Assembly: GCF_001586255.1 (NCBI RefSeq)
Contig: NZ_CP014544.1
Span: 1,023,501-1,087,500, forward strand
Length of the DNA stretch: 64,000 bases
Direction: 5' to 3'
Origin: Zhongshania aliphaticivorans
GTDB lineage: Bacteria > Pseudomonadota > Gammaproteobacteria > Pseudomonadales > Spongiibacteraceae
Below, in pieces: positions 27,969-39,797 of this stretch (position 1 is its first letter; each line of letters opens with the position of its first letter). Under the pieces are notes generated by a model. The model saw only the letters and a list, made by a program, of their open reading frames with translations. It had not been told where the DNA came from and searched no databases. Position numbers and translations under genes: made by a program.

Positions 27969-30900
27969 GTGATTGAAGCGCTGAAGATAATTATCACCAC
28001 GTTCAAGATGAGGTTCCTGTCTTTTGTCTTGTTGCTCTTTGTTGTTCTTACCGTATTAATGATCCCAGTGTCTGACCGTAACGTTCGCATAAAGGAAGAG
28101 CGCCAACTAGAAAATCATTTGCGCAATGCTGTCGACGAACGCAGCAAAGCGTTTATGGCAAGTATTGAACGTTTGAAAAGGGATACCTTATTCCTCGCAG
28201 GGACACCGCCGATACAAGGTATTATTAGGGCGAAAAACAATGGCGGAATTGATCCTCAGGTAAATAATGCTACGGAAGTCTGGGAACAGCGCTTGCAAGA
28301 AATTTTCTCCGCTTATTTGGAGATTCAGCCCGGCGTCCAGCAAGTTCGCTATATTGGTGTTGCCGATCAAGGGCGTGAATTGGTTCGTGTCGATAGAAAA
28401 GGGCAGAAGATAGCGGTGATTGGCGCTGCGCAATTACAACAAAAAGCTGACCGCGATTATTTCTTTGAATCACTTAACAGAGCGCTTGGCGAAGTTTACG
28501 TATCAAAAATTGATCTTAATCGTGAATTCGGTGAAATAGAAATTCCTCATATCCCAACCTTAAGACTTGCTACTCCTGTTTTCGACAAAGCCGGTAGTGC
28601 TTTTGGAGTGCTCGTCATAAATGTAAATTTGCTCGATATTTTTGCAACGATAGGTGCAGATTTTTCGTCAGACGAGAATGTGTATCTTGTTAACTCTGAC
28701 GGCGATTTCCTTATGCACCCGGAGGCTGGTCGCGCTTTTGGCTTTGAATTGGGTGCACCGTTTCGCTGGCAGGATGAGTTTGATAGAACGTTCAGTAGCA
28801 AAGAAAATAAATTATATCGAGTAAGTGATGGCGCGCTATTTTATATCGCGGCCCGTGAAAATTATTATGATGGCGATCACTCCTTGGGCGTGGCGGTTTT
28901 AGCACCCGAAAGTGTCGTAGATCAAACAGTGGCTGCGGCGCGAACATATAATCTTATTATATTGGTTAGCTTATTGTTTATTACCTTGGTGTTTTTGTAC
29001 CTCATGGCAATAAATATCAGGCGCCGAGAAGAACCTGCGCGACAGAACTCGTCAATGGCTGCCATTGTTGAGGGGTCTAATGACGCCATTGTGAGTGAGA
29101 CGGTTGACGGTGTTATTCATAGTTGGAACGATGCCGCTCAGCGGATGTTTGGCTACGCAACGGAACAAGTTGTCGGTAAGACGATGAACAGCTTGGTCGT
29201 ACCTGAAGACTTGGAAGACGAAGCGGTCATGCTTCGGAAAAGAGTTTTCAATGGTGAAACGATTCCCAATTTTGAGACTCGTCGTCGTGATCAGGATGGT
29301 GATGTTATTTATGTGTCGATAACCGTTTCTCCCGTTAAGGACGCTAACGGAAGAATATTTGCCGCCGCTAATATTATTCGGGATATTAGTGATATGAAGG
29401 CGGCGCAAGCACAATTAGTTGAAATGAATCATCGATTAGAAGAGCAAGTTGCCGCACGGACAAGTGAGCTCGAAGCGTCTGGCGTGTTACAGGATGCTAT
29501 TTTAGCAAACGCAGGCTACGCGATTTTTGCAAACAAACCTGATGGCACTATAACGCTTTTTAATCCAGCGGCAGAAGCGATGCTTGGTTATAGCGCCAGT
29601 GAAATGGTAAATAAGCGGACCATGCAGGTAATGTTTATTAAAGAAGAAATAGAAGCTGAATTAAAAAGATTGGCGCAGTTAGATCATAAAACGTTGGTAG
29701 ATAGTAATGGCAAGCTTATTACTCAAGATGTGAATTATGAAAAGGAATGGACGTTTATTCGCAAAGATGGAACGCGAATACCTGTATTGCTGAAAAGCAA
29801 CACTTTGTACGATAAGGAAAATAAGGTAAGCGGCTATATAGGTATTGCTCGAGACCTTACCTTGCAGAAGCAACAACAAGCTGAGCTGATGAAAGCAAAG
29901 GCAATGGCTGAAGAGGCGAGTAAGACCAAGGGTGAGTTTTTAGCGAATATGAGTCATGAAATTCGCACCCCAATGAATGCTGTGTTGGGAATGCTGAATT
30001 TATTAAAATATACCGACATGACCAATCGTCAGTTAGATTATGTCTCAAAGGCCAGCGGTGCTGCCGAAGCGCTATTGGGCATCATTAACGACATTCTTGA
30101 TTTTTCTAAAATAGAAGCTGGGAAACTATTACTTGAAAAAAGACCGTTTTCTATTGATGAAATATTAAAGGATATCGCTGTTATCCTGAGTATGAATATT
30201 AGCGATAAGAATGTTGAAATACTTTTCAATATCGACCCTGCGGTGCCCAAAACCGTGCTGGGTGATTCATTGCGCATAAAGCAAATTCTAATTAACTTGG
30301 CGGGAAATGCCGTTAAATTTACCGAGCAAGGTGAGGTAATGCTGTCGGTTTTTGTACAGCATGAACGCAGTAATAGCATGGTGCTGGGGTTTAAAGTCAG
30401 CGACACCGGAATCGGTATGTCGGCCGATCAGCAAAAACGGGTTTTTGAATCTTTTACTCAGGCCGAAGCGGCTACGACACGACGGTTTGGCGGAACCGGG
30501 CTTGGCCTGGTGATATGTCAGCGATTAATTCGGCTGATGGGGGGCGAATTAGAAGTCGAAAGTGAAGAGGGCAAAGGCAGTACTTTTTCGTTTTCACTTA
30601 TTATTGAGCCAGTAGAAGATGGTGCGCTGCGCGAGCCGGCGCGGCGGGCACTGCCGGTTGAGTACGAAAATCTGCGTTTACTTGTTCTGGACGATAATGC
30701 GCATGCCCGAGAGATTATTGCTGGTATTTGTCAAAATCTTGGTTGGGAAGTCGAAGAGGCGGAAAGCGGCAATATTGGTTTGGAGCTGATTAAGCGGAGT
30801 CTCCTTGAAGCTAAGCCCTATGATATTGTTTTTATCGATTGGATGATGCCGGGTTTAGATGGCTGGCAGACCGCAAGTGCTATTCAAGCGCTTTGTGCCG

Positions 30901-32129
30901 ACACCCTAACTCCACGGCTTGTGATGGTAACGGGGCACGCTAAAGAGGTTTTTGAGCAGCAGGAAGACGCCATCAGCACAGCGCTTGATGGTTTCTTGAT
31001 GAAACCGGTCACCGCCTCGGATATATACAATACAATTATAGAGGCATTAGCAGATAAATCGGCTGAGTATAAAACGGGTATACAGCAATCGAAAGCGACT
31101 AATGATGGCCTTGTTGGTATGCGTATACTCTTGGTGGAAGATAATATTACTAATCAGCAGGTCGCGCGAGAGCTGCTCGCAATTGAGGGTGCTGAGATAG
31201 TCGTGGCTGATAATGGTCAAATTGCCTTGGACAGTATTCGGCATGCGAAGCTGCCATTTGATGCGGTATTAATGGATATTCAGATGCCGGTGATGGACGG
31301 CTATACGGCGACACGGGAGATTCGCGAAACCTTAAAATTGAACTATTTACCCATAGTCGCAATGACCGCTAATGCGATGCCTGCGGATCGCGCCGCCTGC
31401 TTAGCGGCGGGAATGAATGATCATATTGGTAAACCCTTTGATTTGGCTGAGCTAGTCACGGTATTGCAAACCGTCTGCGGTCGCGCTAAGTCAAATCCGC
31501 AGGTTGACGCAGTAAGTAAAAGTGAAGGCCGGGGAGACCTTCCGGAAGCCCCCGTTGGTTTTGCATTTAAAGAGGCCTTGTTGCGTTTAGGTAATAATCG
31601 GGAGTTGTATGCAAGTCAGGCGCGGATGTTTGCGAGTCGACACCGTGATGATCTTGGCAAAGTTCTTTTATTAATTCAAAAGGGTAATAGACCTGGCGCT
31701 GTTCGAGAGCTACACACTTTGCGCGGTGTGGCGGGAACATTGGGTGCGCAGGCGTTAGCGAGCCGACTCTCCGAGCTTGAAATGGCAGCGAAAGGCCTCG
31801 TTGAAGTTCCGGTTATTGAGACCCTGCTAAACGCTACCGAAGTGCATCTCGAAGAAGCTTGTGAGGTCATGCTTAAACTTGCGGACTCGTTGGCGGCGCC
31901 GTCACGGGATGTGACGCCTCCACCTTTAATCGATGAGGAAATAAACGCCAAGCTTGATGAGTTTGGGCGCCTTCTTAAAGACAGTAATATGAGTGCTTTA
32001 GACAGTTTTGAAAGTTTACGTGCTATATTTGCAGTCGATAGCGAACCAGCGATTAAGGTGCGGGAAGCCATGGCGAGTCTTGATTTTGCCGCAGCGCTAG
32101 AGGCTTTAAATATGATGAGGGATAACTGA
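27969..32129 (+). CDS. Large hybrid sensor histidine kinase: Cache, two PAS, HisKA, HATPase, two REC, HPt
   Basis: The 1386-residue protein starts at GTG 27969 (AAAGAGG seven bases upstream). Order: membrane helix about 14-33, extracytoplasmic Cache-like sensor about 35-320 (QQVRYIGVADQGRELVRVD), helix about 325-347, PAS about 360-480, PAS about 495-640. Next come HisKA with phospho-His H663 (ANMSHEIRTPMN) and the ATPase domain (GTGLGLVICQRL). The tail has REC1 with D957 (FIDWMMPG), REC2 with D1103 (LMDIQMPVMDG), and HPt with H1249 (ELHTLRGVAG). All phosphorelay residues are present, so an intact chain is predicted. The next gene is a REC-GGDEF cyclase, its likely output. Confidence 0.92.
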   Translation: MIEALKIIITTFKMRFLSFVLLLFVVLTVLMIPVSDRNVRIKEERQLENHLRNAVDERSKAFMASIERLKRDTLFLAGTPPIQGIIRAKNNGGIDPQVNNATEVWEQRLQEIFSAYLEIQPGVQQVRYIGVADQGRELVRVDRKGQKIAVIGAAQLQQKADRDYFFESLNRALGEVYVSKIDLNREFGEIEIPHIPTLRLATPVFDKAGSAFGVLVINVNLLDIFATIGADFSSDENVYLVNSDGDFLMHPEAGRAFGFELGAPFRWQDEFDRTFSSKENKLYRVSDGALFYIAARENYYDGDHSLGVAVLAPESVVDQTVAAARTYNLIILVSLLFITLVFLYLMAINIRRREEPARQNSSMAAIVEGSNDAIVSETVDGVIHSWNDAAQRMFGYATEQVVGKTMNSLVVPEDLEDEAVMLRKRVFNGETIPNFETRRRDQDGDVIYVSITVSPVKDANGRIFAAANIIRDISDMKAAQAQLVEMNHRLEEQVAARTSELEASGVLQDAILANAGYAIFANKPDGTITLFNPAAEAMLGYSASEMVNKRTMQVMFIKEEIEAELKRLAQLDHKTLVDSNGKLITQDVNYEKEWTFIRKDGTRIPVLLKSNTLYDKENKVSGYIGIARDLTLQKQQQAELMKAKAMAEEASKTKGEFLANMSHEIRTPMNAVLGMLNLLKYTDMTNRQLDYVSKASGAAEALLGIINDILDFSKIEAGKLLLEKRPFSIDEILKDIAVILSMNISDKNVEILFNIDPAVPKTVLGDSLRIKQILINLAGNAVKFTEQGEVMLSVFVQHERSNSMVLGFKVSDTGIGMSADQQKRVFESFTQAEAATTRRFGGTGLGLVICQRLIRLMGGELEVESEEGKGSTFSFSLIIEPVEDGALREPARRALPVEYENLRLLVLDDNAHAREIIAGICQNLGWEVEEAESGNIGLELIKRSLLEAKPYDIVFIDWMMPGLDGWQTASAIQALCADTLTPRLVMVTGHAKEVFEQQEDAISTALDGFLMKPVTASDIYNTIIEALADKSAEYKTGIQQSKATNDGLVGMRILLVEDNITNQQVARELLAIEGAEIVVADNGQIALDSIRHAKLPFDAVLMDIQMPVMDGYTATREIRETLKLNYLPIVAMTANAMPADRAACLAAGMNDHIGKPFDLAELVTVLQTVCGRAKSNPQVDAVSKSEGRGDLPEAPVGFAFKEALLRLGNNRELYASQARMFASRHRDDLGKVLLLIQKGNRPGAVRELHTLRGVAGTLGAQALASRLSELEMAAKGLVEVPVIETLLNATEVHLEEACEVMLKLADSLAAPSRDVTPPPLIDEEINAKLDEFGRLLKDSNMSALDSFESLRAIFAVDSEPAIKVREAMASLDFAAALEALNMMRDN

Positions 32130-32177: not shown

Positions 32178-33143
32178 ATGGTTATGAGTGAACTTAAGCC
32201 CGCGCTGACATCTGGGTTGATCTCCGGCACGTTGGTATCAGAGCGCCCTCGGCTATTGGTGGTTGATGATCAGCCCGTCAATATTCAGGCGCTCTATCAG
32301 GTCTTTGCTAAAGATAGCGAAGTGTTTATGGCCACGAGTGGTCAACAAGCAATTGACGTGTGTCGGCAAAAGCGGCCGGATTTAATTCTGCTTGATGTGC
32401 TGATGCCGGATATGGACGGAATAGAAGTTTGCAAAATACTTAAAGCAGACGCCGAGACTCAGAATATACCCATAATCTTCGTCACCTCTCAAGACAGTCC
32501 TGAAGAGGAGACGCGTGGCTTGGAAGTGGGCGCGGTTGATTTTATTACCAAGCCAGTGAACCCTGCTGTAGTGCGTGCTCGGGTAAAAACACATTTAACG
32601 CTAAAAATGCAATCAGATGCATTGCGGGCATTGGCTTCGATTGATGGCCTGACTCGTATCCCTAATCGGCGTTTCTTTGACGAGCGCTTAGATGCGGAGT
32701 GGCGCGCGTGCCGTCGAGGCGGAAATTCGCTTTCCGTCATTATGATCGATGTCGACCATTTCAAAAAATATAACGACCATTACGGTCATTTGGAAGGGGA
32801 TAATTGCCTGAAGCGCGTGGCGAGCGCGCTTGCGGAGAGCAATTGGCGAGGCCGAGATTTAGCGGCGCGGTATGGTGGGGAAGAGTTCGTTTGTCTAATG
32901 CCTGAAACCGATCTTGCCGGTGCGATGAACAAGGCAGAAAGCCTGCGTTTGCAAATAGAAAATTTAGCGATGCCGCATTCGGAGTCTGCTAATGCTGATA
33001 TGGTCACCATTAGTGTCGGTGTAGCGACTACTGTGCCGAGTGAGCGTGAGTCCGAAGAAGTTTTGCTGGGCGCTGCGGACGAGCAATTGTACAAGGCAAA
33101 GCAAACCGGCCGTAATCGGGTGGTAGGTATCGCGCTTAGCTAA
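32178..33143 (+). CDS. Response regulator diguanylate cyclase (REC-GGDEF)
   Basis: This 321-residue cytoplasmic protein joins a receiver domain (about 25-145; LILLDVLMPDMDG with the phospho-Asp) to a GGDEF domain (about 165-320) with the active motif GGEEF. Its RGRD lies five residues before GGEEF, as in the product-inhibition I-site (RxxD). It should make c-di-GMP when phosphorylated. Start ATG 32178 or ATG 32184. It follows the hybrid kinase by 48 bases in the same direction, so the kinase probably drives it through its HPt domain. Confidence 0.92.
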   Translation: MVMSELKPALTSGLISGTLVSERPRLLVVDDQPVNIQALYQVFAKDSEVFMATSGQQAIDVCRQKRPDLILLDVLMPDMDGIEVCKILKADAETQNIPIIFVTSQDSPEEETRGLEVGAVDFITKPVNPAVVRARVKTHLTLKMQSDALRALASIDGLTRIPNRRFFDERLDAEWRACRRGGNSLSVIMIDVDHFKKYNDHYGHLEGDNCLKRVASALAESNWRGRDLAARYGGEEFVCLMPETDLAGAMNKAESLRLQIENLAMPHSESANADMVTISVGVATTVPSERESEEVLLGAADEQLYKAKQTGRNRVVGIALS

Positions 33144-37189: not shown

Positions 37190-37505
37190 ACTGGCTATCC
37201 TCGTATTATATTTGTTGGAACTGACGAGCTTATACGCGAACGGAAGTCGCGATGTTTTTGTCCTAAAAAATATACTACAGTGTAATTATGCTCACAAGTT
37301 AATTTTTTATCATGGGGCTTGGCCGGTATACGCTAATGTGTAAAAAATATAATTTAGTGCTATTTATCAATTGCTTACGCGTGTCCTAGGGCGCGTTATT
37401 GGCAGGCTCCGGGTTTCGTAAGTATATTTCCCAGTTACTGAGATAGTTCACATAGCTACACTCTTTGTAGTAGTGGGCTGTTTGTTAAAAAATTCAGGGG
37501 AATGC
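37190..37505. other. Divergent promoter region between P450 and heme-PAS kinase
   Basis: This 316-bp gap contains the start regions of two divergent units and no gene. I see AT-rich stretches near 37260-37375 and a ribosome-binding site on each side, but no clear operator repeat. Confidence 0.4.
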
Positions 37506-39032
37506 ATGAAGGGGCAGGACGCGGTCAATGATTTACTGTCACGTACAAAGGCGATTGTAGAGACAATCGTAGATGGCGTGATTACGATTAGTGATCGCGG
37601 CTTAATTGAAACCGTTAATCCTGCGGTAGAAAAAATATTTGGCTACCGTCTAGATGAGCTCAGTGGTCAAAATGTCTCAATGTTGATGCCAAACCCCTAC
37701 CAACGTGAGCACGACAGCTACCTTAGTAATTATCTTAGTACCGGCGAAAAGAAAATTATTGGTATTGGTCGCGAGGTCACTGGCCGACGCAAAGACGGCA
37801 GTACCTTCCCTCTAGAGTTGGCTATTAGTGAAATGGAGGTGAATGGCCAGCGTATGTTTACTGGCATCGTCCGGGATATATCGCTGCGCAAGGCCACTGA
37901 AGAGAAGCTCCGTGAATTGTTGACGCGCACCAAGGCAATTCTCGACACCATTGTGGATGGTGTTATCACCATTAGTGATCGCGGTTGTATTGAGACGGTT
38001 AACCCCGCGGCCGAAAAAATATTTGGTTACCGTTTAGATGAGCTTAGCGGTAAGAATGTTTCGATGCTGATGCCCGACCCGTATCGGCATGAACACGACC
38101 AATACTTAAAAAATTACCTTCATACCGGCGAAAAGAAAATTATTGGCATTGGTCGAGAGGTTACTGGTCTTCGGAAAGACGGCACCACGTTTCCATTGGA
38201 ATTGGCCATTAGCGAGATGGAAGTCAACGGTCAGCGCATGTTTACCGGTATTGTTCGGGATATTTCAGAACGTAAAGAAACTGAAGAAAAGCTCCGAGAG
38301 GCGATGCGCAGAGTGCATGAGCAGCGTATTAAAGATGAATTTATTGCCACGGTAAGTCATGAACTGCGAACGCCGTTAACGTCAATCAAGGCATCGTTAG
38401 AGCTGATTATAGGTAAGGCTGTGGCCAAGGGGTCCGATCAGGAGAAAATGCTCATTACCATCGCTCACAAGAACAGTGATCGTTTATTGTTATTGATTAA
38501 TGATATTTTAGATATTTCTAAAATTGAATCTGAAAAAATGAAGTTAAATTTTAGACGAGTACGATTGCATTCGTTTTTAGAAACTGCGATTTCTGACAAT
38601 CAGGCTTATGCGGAAAAGCATCACGTCAAATTTGTGTTAATAGATTGTCCGGGAAATCTCCATATTTATGTGGACCCAGATCGCCTTATGCAGGTGATGA
38701 GTAATTTAATGTCGAACGCGGCAAAGTTTTCTCATCAGAACTCACAAATAGAGATTGAAGCTAGGCGCAGGGATGATGGCATCCGGATTACGGTGCGCGA
38801 TTATGGCCCTGGCATTCCCCTCGATTTTCAGAACAGAGTATTTGAAAAGTTCACTCAGGCGGATACCTCAGATAAACGCGAAATGAGCGGCACCGGCTTG
38901 GGCTTACATATTTCCAAAGCCATTATTGAGCGACATCATGGTGAGCTTTCTTTTGACACGGTGGTTGGCAAAGGCACAGAATTTCATGTTGATTTAAAAC
39001 AACAATTACAGAGGCAGGGTAGCCCTCAATGA
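37506..39032 (+). CDS. Soluble histidine kinase with two tandem FixL-type (putative heme) PAS domains
   Basis: This 508-residue protein (start ATG 37506, AGGGGAA upstream) has two nearly identical PAS domains at residues 13-126 and 141-254. HisKA follows with phospho-His H285 (ATVSHELRTP) and an ATPase domain (GTGLGLHISKAI). Each PAS matches the FixL oxygen-sensing type: NVSMLMP, YLxxYLxTGEKKIIGIGR, DGTTFPLELAISEMEVNG. The FixL proximal heme ligand His is present in both copies (H69 and H197) and the distal Arg too (R89 and R217). There is no membrane segment. The protein lacks its own REC and is followed, with a 4-base overlap, by a stand-alone REC gene. Confidence 0.93.
   Translation: MKGQDAVNDLLSRTKAIVETIVDGVITISDRGLIETVNPAVEKIFGYRLDELSGQNVSMLMPNPYQREHDSYLSNYLSTGEKKIIGIGREVTGRRKDGSTFPLELAISEMEVNGQRMFTGIVRDISLRKATEEKLRELLTRTKAILDTIVDGVITISDRGCIETVNPAAEKIFGYRLDELSGKNVSMLMPDPYRHEHDQYLKNYLHTGEKKIIGIGREVTGLRKDGTTFPLELAISEMEVNGQRMFTGIVRDISERKETEEKLREAMRRVHEQRIKDEFIATVSHELRTPLTSIKASLELIIGKAVAKGSDQEKMLITIAHKNSDRLLLLINDILDISKIESEKMKLNFRRVRLHSFLETAISDNQAYAEKHHVKFVLIDCPGNLHIYVDPDRLMQVMSNLMSNAAKFSHQNSQIEIEARRRDDGIRITVRDYGPGIPLDFQNRVFEKFTQADTSDKREMSGTGLGLHISKAIIERHHGELSFDTVVGKGTEFHVDLKQQLQRQGSPQ
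37542..38267 (+). repeat. 384-bp-period internal duplication encoding the two PAS domains
   Basis: Two copies, 37542-37883 and 37926-38267, lie one 384-bp period apart within the kinase gene. The encoded domains differ at only 13 of 114 aligned residues, while the DNA differs mostly at third positions. This indicates duplication followed by purifying selection rather than a very recent copy. Confidence 0.85.
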
Positions 39033-39424
39033 CGACATGCCCAGAGCTTGAACGAGTTTTGTATATTGAAGATGAGCCAGATATTCGCTTGGTGGCGGAG
39101 ATTGCTCTGCGTCAAGTTGGTGCCTTAAATGTCATCACTTGTGCCGGTGGCGAAGAAGGTTTGAGTTTAATTCATGACTTTATGCCGCAGTTAATTATTC
39201 TTGATGTGATGATGCCCGGCATGGATGGTCCGCAAATACTTTGTAAACTTAGAGATATGCCGGAGTTCAAAACGACGCCGGTGGTGTTTATTACTGCAAA
39301 AGTTCAAGCCGATGAAGTGGAGCAATTTAAACGCCTTGGCGCAGCAGACGTGATAAGCAAGCCCTTTAACCCGATGACCCTGGCCGACGATGTGCGGGCA
39401 ATATGGGCGGCGTGTTATGAGTGA
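39029..39424 (+). CDS. Stand-alone receiver-domain response regulator
   Basis: This 131-residue protein is a lone REC domain with acidic pocket EDEPD near 14-18, phospho-Asp D59 in LIILDVMMPGMDG, Thr/Ser switch (VVFITAK) and Lys in ISKPFNP. It starts 4 bases inside the upstream kinase gene (ATGA) and its stop lies 8 bases past the start of the HPt gene, so all three are translated as a unit. It is expected to take phosphate from the heme-PAS kinase. It has no output domain, so it must pass phosphate on or bind a partner. Confidence 0.93.
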   Translation: MTTCPELERVLYIEDEPDIRLVAEIALRQVGALNVITCAGGEEGLSLIHDFMPQLIILDVMMPGMDGPQILCKLRDMPEFKTTPVVFITAKVQADEVEQFKRLGAADVISKPFNPMTLADDVRAIWAACYE

Positions 39425-39797
39425 ACGCGAGTTAAACGAAAAGCCAAGTGTCGACGCTCAGCTGGCGACGCTGCAGGCGGAGTATATTGCTAATCTATAC
39501 GAACGGGTGTTACCCGTTTTAAGCCTGTGGCAGGATTATATTGCTAGCGATTATTCGCCGGAATTGTTGCGCGATGTTTACCGGAAAGTGCATGCAATCG
39601 CGGGAACCTCAAGTATTTTGAATGTTAAACCGATAGATCGCTTAAGTAATCAAGTACAGATAAAAATTCAAACTGTATTACAGGCCGCTGACATTGAAAC
39701 GACGCTAATCGCAGAGATTGGTCTGACCTTAAATGAGATCCTAGATGTGGCGAAGTCGGGCGATATTAATGCCCCACCAATTAATTTAAATACTTGA
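39417..39797 (+). CDS. Stand-alone HPt (histidine phosphotransfer) protein
   Basis: This 126-residue protein has an all-helical pattern and the HPt core RDVYRKVHAIAGTSSILNV, with phospho-acceptor H59 in KVHAIAG. It starts at ATG 39417 inside the receiver gene. Together with the two upstream genes it completes a His-Asp-His relay split across three proteins. The final target is probably a REC-output protein encoded elsewhere or nearby. The TetR gene downstream starts about 120 bases away and has no REC. Confidence 0.82.
   Translation: MSERELNEKPSVDAQLATLQAEYIANLYERVLPVLSLWQDYIASDYSPELLRDVYRKVHAIAGTSSILNVKPIDRLSNQVQIKIQTVLQAADIETTLIAEIGLTLNEILDVAKSGDINAPPINLNT

Follow-up and report, generated by a model that had tools for sequence, protein, structure and literature searches.

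The window analyzed here is a stretch of 64,000 nucleotides from the genome of Zhongshania aliphaticivorans (contig NZ_CP014544.1, positions 1,023,501 to 1,087,500 of the forward strand), and our subject is a three-gene operon within it that encodes a sensor histidine kinase bearing a pair of FixL-type PAS domains, a lone receiver (REC) protein and a lone histidine phosphotransfer protein (HPt). The genes of this trio and their domains are as follows:

37506..39032, plus strand: soluble sensor histidine kinase, 508 aa, ATG start, PAS1-PAS2-HisKA-HATPase_c by Pfam
37542..37910, plus strand: PAS1, FixL type, residues 13-135, with H69 (37710-37712) at the heme-ligand position and distal R89 (37770-37772)
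37926..38294, plus strand: PAS2, FixL type, residues 141-263, adjoining the kinase core, with H197 (38094-38096) and R217 (38154-38156)
38331..39002, plus strand: kinase core, HisKA and HATPase_c, with H285 in SHELRTPLT (38358-38360)
39029..39424, plus strand: lone REC, 131 aa, Pfam Response_reg, phospho-acceptor D59 (39203-39205)
39417..39797, plus strand: lone HPt, 126 aa, H59 (39591-39593) in HAIAGTS

The kinase and REC genes overlap by 4 nt and the REC and HPt genes by 8 nt, and the residues of a His-Asp-His series (kinase H285, receiver D59, HPt H59) are all encoded together. The original prediction for this DNA had described a kinase without REC followed by a lone REC (D59) and a lone HPt (H59) in overlapping genes; coordinates and Pfam agree, the kinase matching two PAS domains, HisKA and HATPase_c and no fused REC. 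The same prediction called the kinase “soluble,” and indeed it contains no membrane helix and no sufficiently hydrophobic 19-aa stretch (highest mean hydropathy 1.19). Neither the open reading frames nor Pfam gave an output regulator within the operon.

The third protein is taken as an HPt from its family alignment. By itself it misses the Pfam Hpt cut-off (E 0.14); all 15 aligned family members match Pfam Hpt at E <=1 (best 2.5e-12), and the alignment of these 15 sequences has nine invariant columns, H59 included. Compared with solved chains, the alignment profile matched two synthetic helical-bundle proteins first (best 9.7e-8) and CheA next (3.8e-6), with weak matches to YPD1 (E 0.14) and the BarA HPt (E 0.78), and no extra domain was found in the 126-aa protein by Pfam or profile searches. 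We regard the predicted HPt assignment as standing.

The PAS coding region is a direct repeat of 300 nt at a spacing of 384 nt, with 77% identical DNA. PAS1 and PAS2 differ at 13 of 114 residues when residues 13-126 are taken (exactly the count first reported for two PAS domains 384 bp apart), at 14 of 114 for residues 14-127 and at 16 of 128 over the whole repeat. A comparison of each domain with FixL had been proposed together with the original prediction; it gives 45-49% identity (57/122 residues for PAS1 and 60/122 for PAS2 with the S. meliloti FixL heme-PAS, 55/121 and 57/121 with that of B. japonicum FixL), and the PAS1 match to a FixL chain, at E 2.7e-35, is well beyond chance. H69 and H197, as well as R89 and R217, align in register with the same letters in the two solved FixL domains, at positions that we take to be the heme ligand and the distal Arg (B. 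japonicum H200 and R220), so that the claim that both copies keep these residues holds. Two residues before the pocket Arg stands an Ile, the same as in B. japonicum FixL; in DosP, a Met at that place is the sixth heme ligand, and a five-coordinate heme is the likelier prediction here because Ile takes its position. As in FixL, a five-coordinate heme is most probably ligated by H69 in PAS1 and by H197 in PAS2, and R89 and R217, respectively, would cover the site where O2 binds. Heme is not bound by every FixL-like PAS, and the pair might bind none or bind another ligand; set against the identity to two solved heme-PAS domains, the ligand and distal residues in register and the conserved pocket, this seems very unlikely to us.

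To place the trio in its genus we used 18 genomes including that of the window (codes G000-G017, genus by kinship code), of which 16 have an orthologue of the kinase; it contains two PAS domains in 10 of them and a single one in 6. The best kinase match in G004 is only 42% identical, and G010 has none at E 1e-20. The PAS repeat is not a recent duplication, because its 128 codons in the window comprise 53 identical, 59 with silent differences and 16 that change the residue; within genomes, synonymous divergence (dS) between PAS1 and PAS2 is immeasurably high in 4 of the 10 tandem genomes and 1.6-3.0 in the remaining 6. The ratio of nonsynonymous to synonymous change (dN/dS) is 0.008 for PAS1 and likewise for PAS2 between the close genomes G000 and G002, and 0.043 and 0.035, respectively, between G016 and G017. 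On a list of 16 pocket positions drawn from FixL structures, 15 positions are invariant in each copy, as against 79/123 (PAS1) and 84/123 (PAS2) overall (p 0.005 and 0.014), and both His and Arg are present in all 26 PAS copies of the 16 orthologues. On these grounds, both PAS domains appear to be old and their pockets to have been kept.

The twin arrangement itself is optional rather than a core design, since 6 of the 16 orthologues have one PAS. The “double-heme gas sensor” first proposed is therefore upheld for the two FixL-type domains with both signature residues, but not as a fixed design. A one-gene tree, with several deep branches unresolved, requires at the fewest 4 changes of PAS number and 3 of genomic neighborhood. 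A single clade of all ten PAS1 is not rejected by the PAS trees (p 0.28). A loss of PAS1 in G005 and G006 fits one tree, which took in 58 of 140 PAS domains; the other tree allows the PAS of these two genomes to group with PAS2 (p 0.14) as well as with PAS1 (p 0.21). From these trees we claim only that copy number varies.

What a second PAS might do can be weighed against this background. The model that came with the original prediction, in which both hemes sense O2 and a joint cooperative or two-step response is the purpose of the duplication, agrees with the strong purifying selection on the pockets of both copies and with the recurrence of tandem and triple FixL-type PAS in other genera. 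It is doubtful, in our view, given the single PAS of six orthologues, the four changes on the tree, the loss of the His from the second PAS in four loci of other genomes (L066, L067, L177, L178) and the example of V. vulnificus Aer2, whose three heme-PAS domains are described in the accessible part of PMC13401364 as alike in O2 affinity and unlike in role. A different division of labor, which we hold to be tentatively credible though short of probable, would make PAS2 the sole O2 switch and PAS1 a dimerization or spacer domain with a heme for stability, comparable to the PAS-A that precedes the heme-bearing PAS-B in B. japonicum FixL. PAS2 adjoins the kinase and evolves more slowly (mean nonsynonymous difference, pN, 0.093 vs 0.122 for PAS1 over the 10 tandem genomes), and FixL senses O2 through the heme in PAS-B, according to the accessible part of PMC8534201; the PAS1 pocket, however, is equally conserved, with the same omega of 0.008 in the closest pair.

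A lone REC stands beside the kinase in 16 of 16 genomes. Fourteen of these also have an HPt, which adjoins the REC in all but G017, where the distance is about 38 kb; a relay is likely because kinase, lone REC and HPt remain together in most of the genus. The “three-protein relay” of the original prediction is thus supported in its gene content, but its HPt end needs a further receiver. G010 has an HPt-like gene next to a kinase of only 25% identity. The conserved relay behind the twin PAS is a more interesting point than the optional twin domain.

Mobile elements were seen at two of these loci. In G017 a Mu-like phage, read in two pieces that lie 20 kb apart (L137:8441-14001, L138:1-12194), sits between the lone REC and HPt genes of the operon, with 6 of 6 tested proteins matching PHROGs families (repressor, transposase, transposition protein, tape measure and tail among them), and in G016 the HPt gene is followed downstream by one for an IS66 transposase (L139:10908-12659).

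Outside the genus, we read stretches of other genomes around matches (locus codes L0xx-L2xx). In L064, L069, L067 and L063 a lone REC accompanies a tandem-PAS kinase, and the window lone REC shares 52%, 51%, 46% and 45% identity with these four, respectively, as against at most 34% over at least 100 residues (and up to 37% over shorter stretches) for the other RECs compared. Of 274 gammaproteobacterial genomes sampled, 49 (the window genome among them) have a match to this receiver with an E value no higher than 1e-32, a count that may be low with at most 15 candidates scored per genome; the tandem PAS query, at E 1e-60, found 5 of the 274, again including the window genome. Twenty of the 49 lone-REC matches, outside the window genome, were read as loci, each scored for one lone REC with a limit of 400 bp: 13 have a kinase within that distance, 6 an HPt-REC(-REC)-GGDEF gene and 5 both. 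By this rule L216, where one gene intervenes, and L222, where an HPt-GGDEF gene belongs to a second lone REC, are scored as loci that have no HPt-GGDEF gene.

Together with L064, L067, L175, L177 and L178, ten of the loci read carry kinase, lone REC and HPt-REC(-REC)-GGDEF genes in that order, the other five being L209, L210, L211, L217 and L220. Both His and Arg are present in at least one PAS of the kinase in seven of the ten (L064, L067, L175, L177, L178, L210, L217). The domain models used for the loci were home-made hidden Markov models built from few sequences; Pfam was run as a check on L064, L067 and L069, and it confirms Hpt, REC and GGDEF in L064 and L067. In L175, a REC-less kinase (ending 6 residues past its core) with two PAS domains bearing H, I and R is followed on the same strand by a lone REC and an HPt-REC-REC-GGDEF gene. 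A kinase-core tree that used 6 of the 16 genus kinases places these 6 and 19 of 25 other cores in one clade with support 100/100; by the home-made models, 14 of the 19 relatives have two fused RECs, 1 has one and 4 have none. The lone REC of the window trio is nearest to that of this module, and the window HPt is not fused to REC and GGDEF.

These ten loci bear on a quite different role for the last two proteins of the trio: REC and HPt could draw phosphate off the kinase, as a sink or as a feedback pair, with no forward relay. The operon has no output regulator, lone RECs can serve as sinks in other systems, and G011 and G014 have kept REC without HPt, all of which would suit such a role; the HPt that follows the lone REC is fused to REC-GGDEF in the ten loci, which speaks for an onward step, and we consider a sink improbable, if worth keeping in mind.

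Among the PAS relatives (80 of 496, picked by the tandem query and therefore biased in their share of tandems), tandem or triple FixL-type PAS domains recur in other genera. In the tandem kinases of L066, L067, L177 and L178, the second PAS has a Tyr at the heme His position; two Pseudoalteromonas loci (L060, L068) encode kinases with three serial FixL-type PAS domains, and at the related two-PAS locus L061, also Pseudoalteromonas, going one gene further upstream leads to a response regulator of REC-HD type. The nearest PAS pair outside the genus is that of L174, at 69% identity.

Taken together, we give an approximately even chance (about 0.5) to the reading that the trio is the front half of an O2-controlled phosphorelay that probably leads to cyclic di-GMP (c-di-GMP) in trans. 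Gene order, domains, conserved residues, gene association and selection are what we observe, and from them we infer the heme, the O2 response, phosphotransfer and the c-di-GMP output. If the kinase works like FixL, its autophosphorylation at H285 would fall when O2 binds to PAS2, the domain next to the core, while PAS1 would offer another O2 site with a modulating effect on PAS2. From H285 the phosphate would go to D59 of the lone REC, then to H59 of the HPt and on to a receiver encoded elsewhere, and the output would be c-di-GMP synthesis by a separate REC-GGDEF protein. We favor c-di-GMP as the likeliest output because in the relatives the HPt and this receiver are parts of one protein, HPt-REC(-REC)-GGDEF.

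A candidate for that protein is encoded in the window itself, beside another kinase:

32178..33143, plus strand: REC-GGDEF response regulator, adjoining a hybrid kinase; candidate partner in trans for the HPt by orthologue co-occurrence
27969-32129: hybrid kinase, 1386 aa, followed by the REC-GGDEF regulator, 4.4 kb upstream of the trio

When the window genome was searched with the HPt-REC-GGDEF protein of L067, two REC-GGDEF genes matched best, at 1107966-1108859 (genome coordinates) and at 32178-33143 of the window. Orthologues of the latter (65-100% identity) occur in 14 of the 18 genomes, and these are exactly the ones with a complete set of kinase, REC and HPt; in G004, G011 and G014 the copies reach 37-41% only, and G010 has none at E 1e-50. 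Since G011 and G014 keep kinase and REC and have no HPt, the REC-GGDEF gene tracks the HPt and not the kinase. We treat it as a candidate partner of the HPt, a lead and no proof. An extended version of this idea is that the genus has a stripped O2-to-c-di-GMP relay, in which HPt drives a REC-GGDEF protein in trans and the number of heme-PAS domains (1, 2 and elsewhere 3) is an evolutionary dial on the O2 threshold; taken as a whole, we consider this speculative and on balance unlikely.

The gene neighborhood of the module varies within the genus. In 7 of 16 genomes (G003, G005, G006, G008, G009, G016, G017) it lies directly 3′ of, and on the same strand as, genes for CyoA, CyoB, CyoC, CyoD, SURF1, a membrane kinase and a REC-Fis regulator, which were assigned by similarity (in G016 by Pfam) and which we take to be a quinol oxidase, RegB and RegA; the HPt gene comes next after the REC gene in six of the seven, G017 being the exception. 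In five other genomes (G001, G007, G012, G013, G014) the module is downstream of a gene of 1025-1128 aa (L143, L147, L148, L150, L151), identified by Pfam as DNA polymerase III alpha in the two tested (G013, G014), and in G000, G002 and G015 it lies among other genes that read as catabolic. A terminal oxidase as neighbor in 7 of 16 genomes supports a role in the response to O2, though it is not found in the window itself.

This arrangement also suggests another target: the HPt could feed the RegA-type regulator upstream in the seven genomes, and the module would then tune the quinol oxidase. The run cyoABCD-SURF1-RegB-RegA-kinase-REC on one strand, followed in six genomes by HPt, is what one would expect of such a link; nevertheless, the module occurs without RegB in G001 and G007, and RegB without the orthologous kinase in G004 and G010, and we think it quite unlikely that RegA is the target.

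Promoter-like and terminator-like sites are about as numerous in the window as in shuffled sequence. FNR-type sites are more frequent (45 matches with two mismatches, above every one of 100 shuffles), and a single one, at 37357 with 2 mismatches, lies between the P450 and kinase genes; neither observation was used as evidence.

Several findings weigh against an O2-controlled relay to c-di-GMP as we have drawn it. On the genomic side, the trio in the window genome adjoins P450, TetR and Rieske genes (names by reading), and the cyo-RegBA cluster of that genome, at 3.11 Mb, lies 2 Mb from the trio and has no such module next to it; G001 and G007 have the module with no RegB match and no close CyoB, and HPt is absent from G011 and G014 where kinase and REC are kept. 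As to the proposed output, the co-occurrence of REC-GGDEF and HPt comes down to only 3 changes by the fewest count on a weakly resolved one-gene tree, and the REC-GGDEF gene at 32178-33143 adjoins a hybrid kinase that has RECs of its own. The wider family is also uneven: 7 of the 20 lone-REC loci have no kinase and 14 no HPt-GGDEF gene within 400 bp, and 3 of the 10 module kinases lack the full heme signature (L209 without His, L220 without Arg, L211 with no such PAS found). The window HPt bears little resemblance to its fused counterparts (weak matches, E 3e-5 for L069, 2e-4 for L067, 0.23 for L064), and several cores fall outside the kinase clade: those of L211, Pseudoalteromonas L061 and L068, the second hybrid of L069, the window hybrid kinase and L174. 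With even the nearest PAS pair outside the genus (L174) joined to an outlying core, PAS pairs and cores have been shuffled. The main grounds of our claim for the window are the PAS domains of its kinase and the L175 locus, and our confidence is therefore unchanged by the three kinases, the outlying cores or the weak HPt matches.

If the relay does end in c-di-GMP, a heme O2 sensor would be tied through a lone receiver to the decision between attached and motile life, and a receiver family present in 49 of the 274 sampled gammaproteobacterial genomes would gain its first function. If the second heme is functional, the natural one- and two-PAS orthologues within one genus would offer a test of sensor copy number against O2 response.

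In the open-licence literature, which leaves most subscription journals outside, we found no description of a kinase carrying two heme-PAS domains of FixL type and none of a kinase/lone REC/HPt-GGDEF module. Receptors with several heme-PAS domains have already been described, so a twin heme-PAS is not unprecedented: the accessible part of PMC13401364 presents V. cholerae Aer2 as a dual and V. vulnificus Aer2 as a tri-PAS-heme sensor. Vibrio Aer2 thus shares with the predicted sensor the serial heme-PAS domains in one O2 receptor (same source and extent), but it is a chemoreceptor, whereas by Pfam the window protein has kinase domains and no chemoreceptor signaling domain. With FixL-FixJ the trio shares the FixL-type heme-PAS signature and the PAS identity given above, and B. 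japonicum FixL is likewise a soluble kinase with two PAS domains (PMC8534201, accessible part). It differs in that both window PAS domains are of the heme type and that a lone REC and an HPt stand beside the kinase; the neighboring regulator is REC only, with no FixJ-type protein (REC plus DNA-binding domain) beside the kinase, and the kinase scores 336.1 bits with the NCBIfam sens_FixL model, below its cut-off of 850.

The Spo0 relay of B. subtilis (KinA-Spo0F-Spo0B-Spo0A) offers a parallel in its soluble PAS kinase, lone receiver and separate phosphotransferase, but its kinases and phosphotransferase are of other kinds, and the trio has no known terminal regulator. The kinase/lone REC/HPt-REC(-REC)-GGDEF loci of Gammaproteobacteria come nearest, with a related kinase core and lone REC and, in L175, the same REC-less kinase with twin heme-type PAS domains; they differ in that the HPt of the window and of the genus is free of REC and GGDEF. 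The best reading of the window trio is that of such a module minus the cyclase: a putative relay like that of L175, with its output detached.

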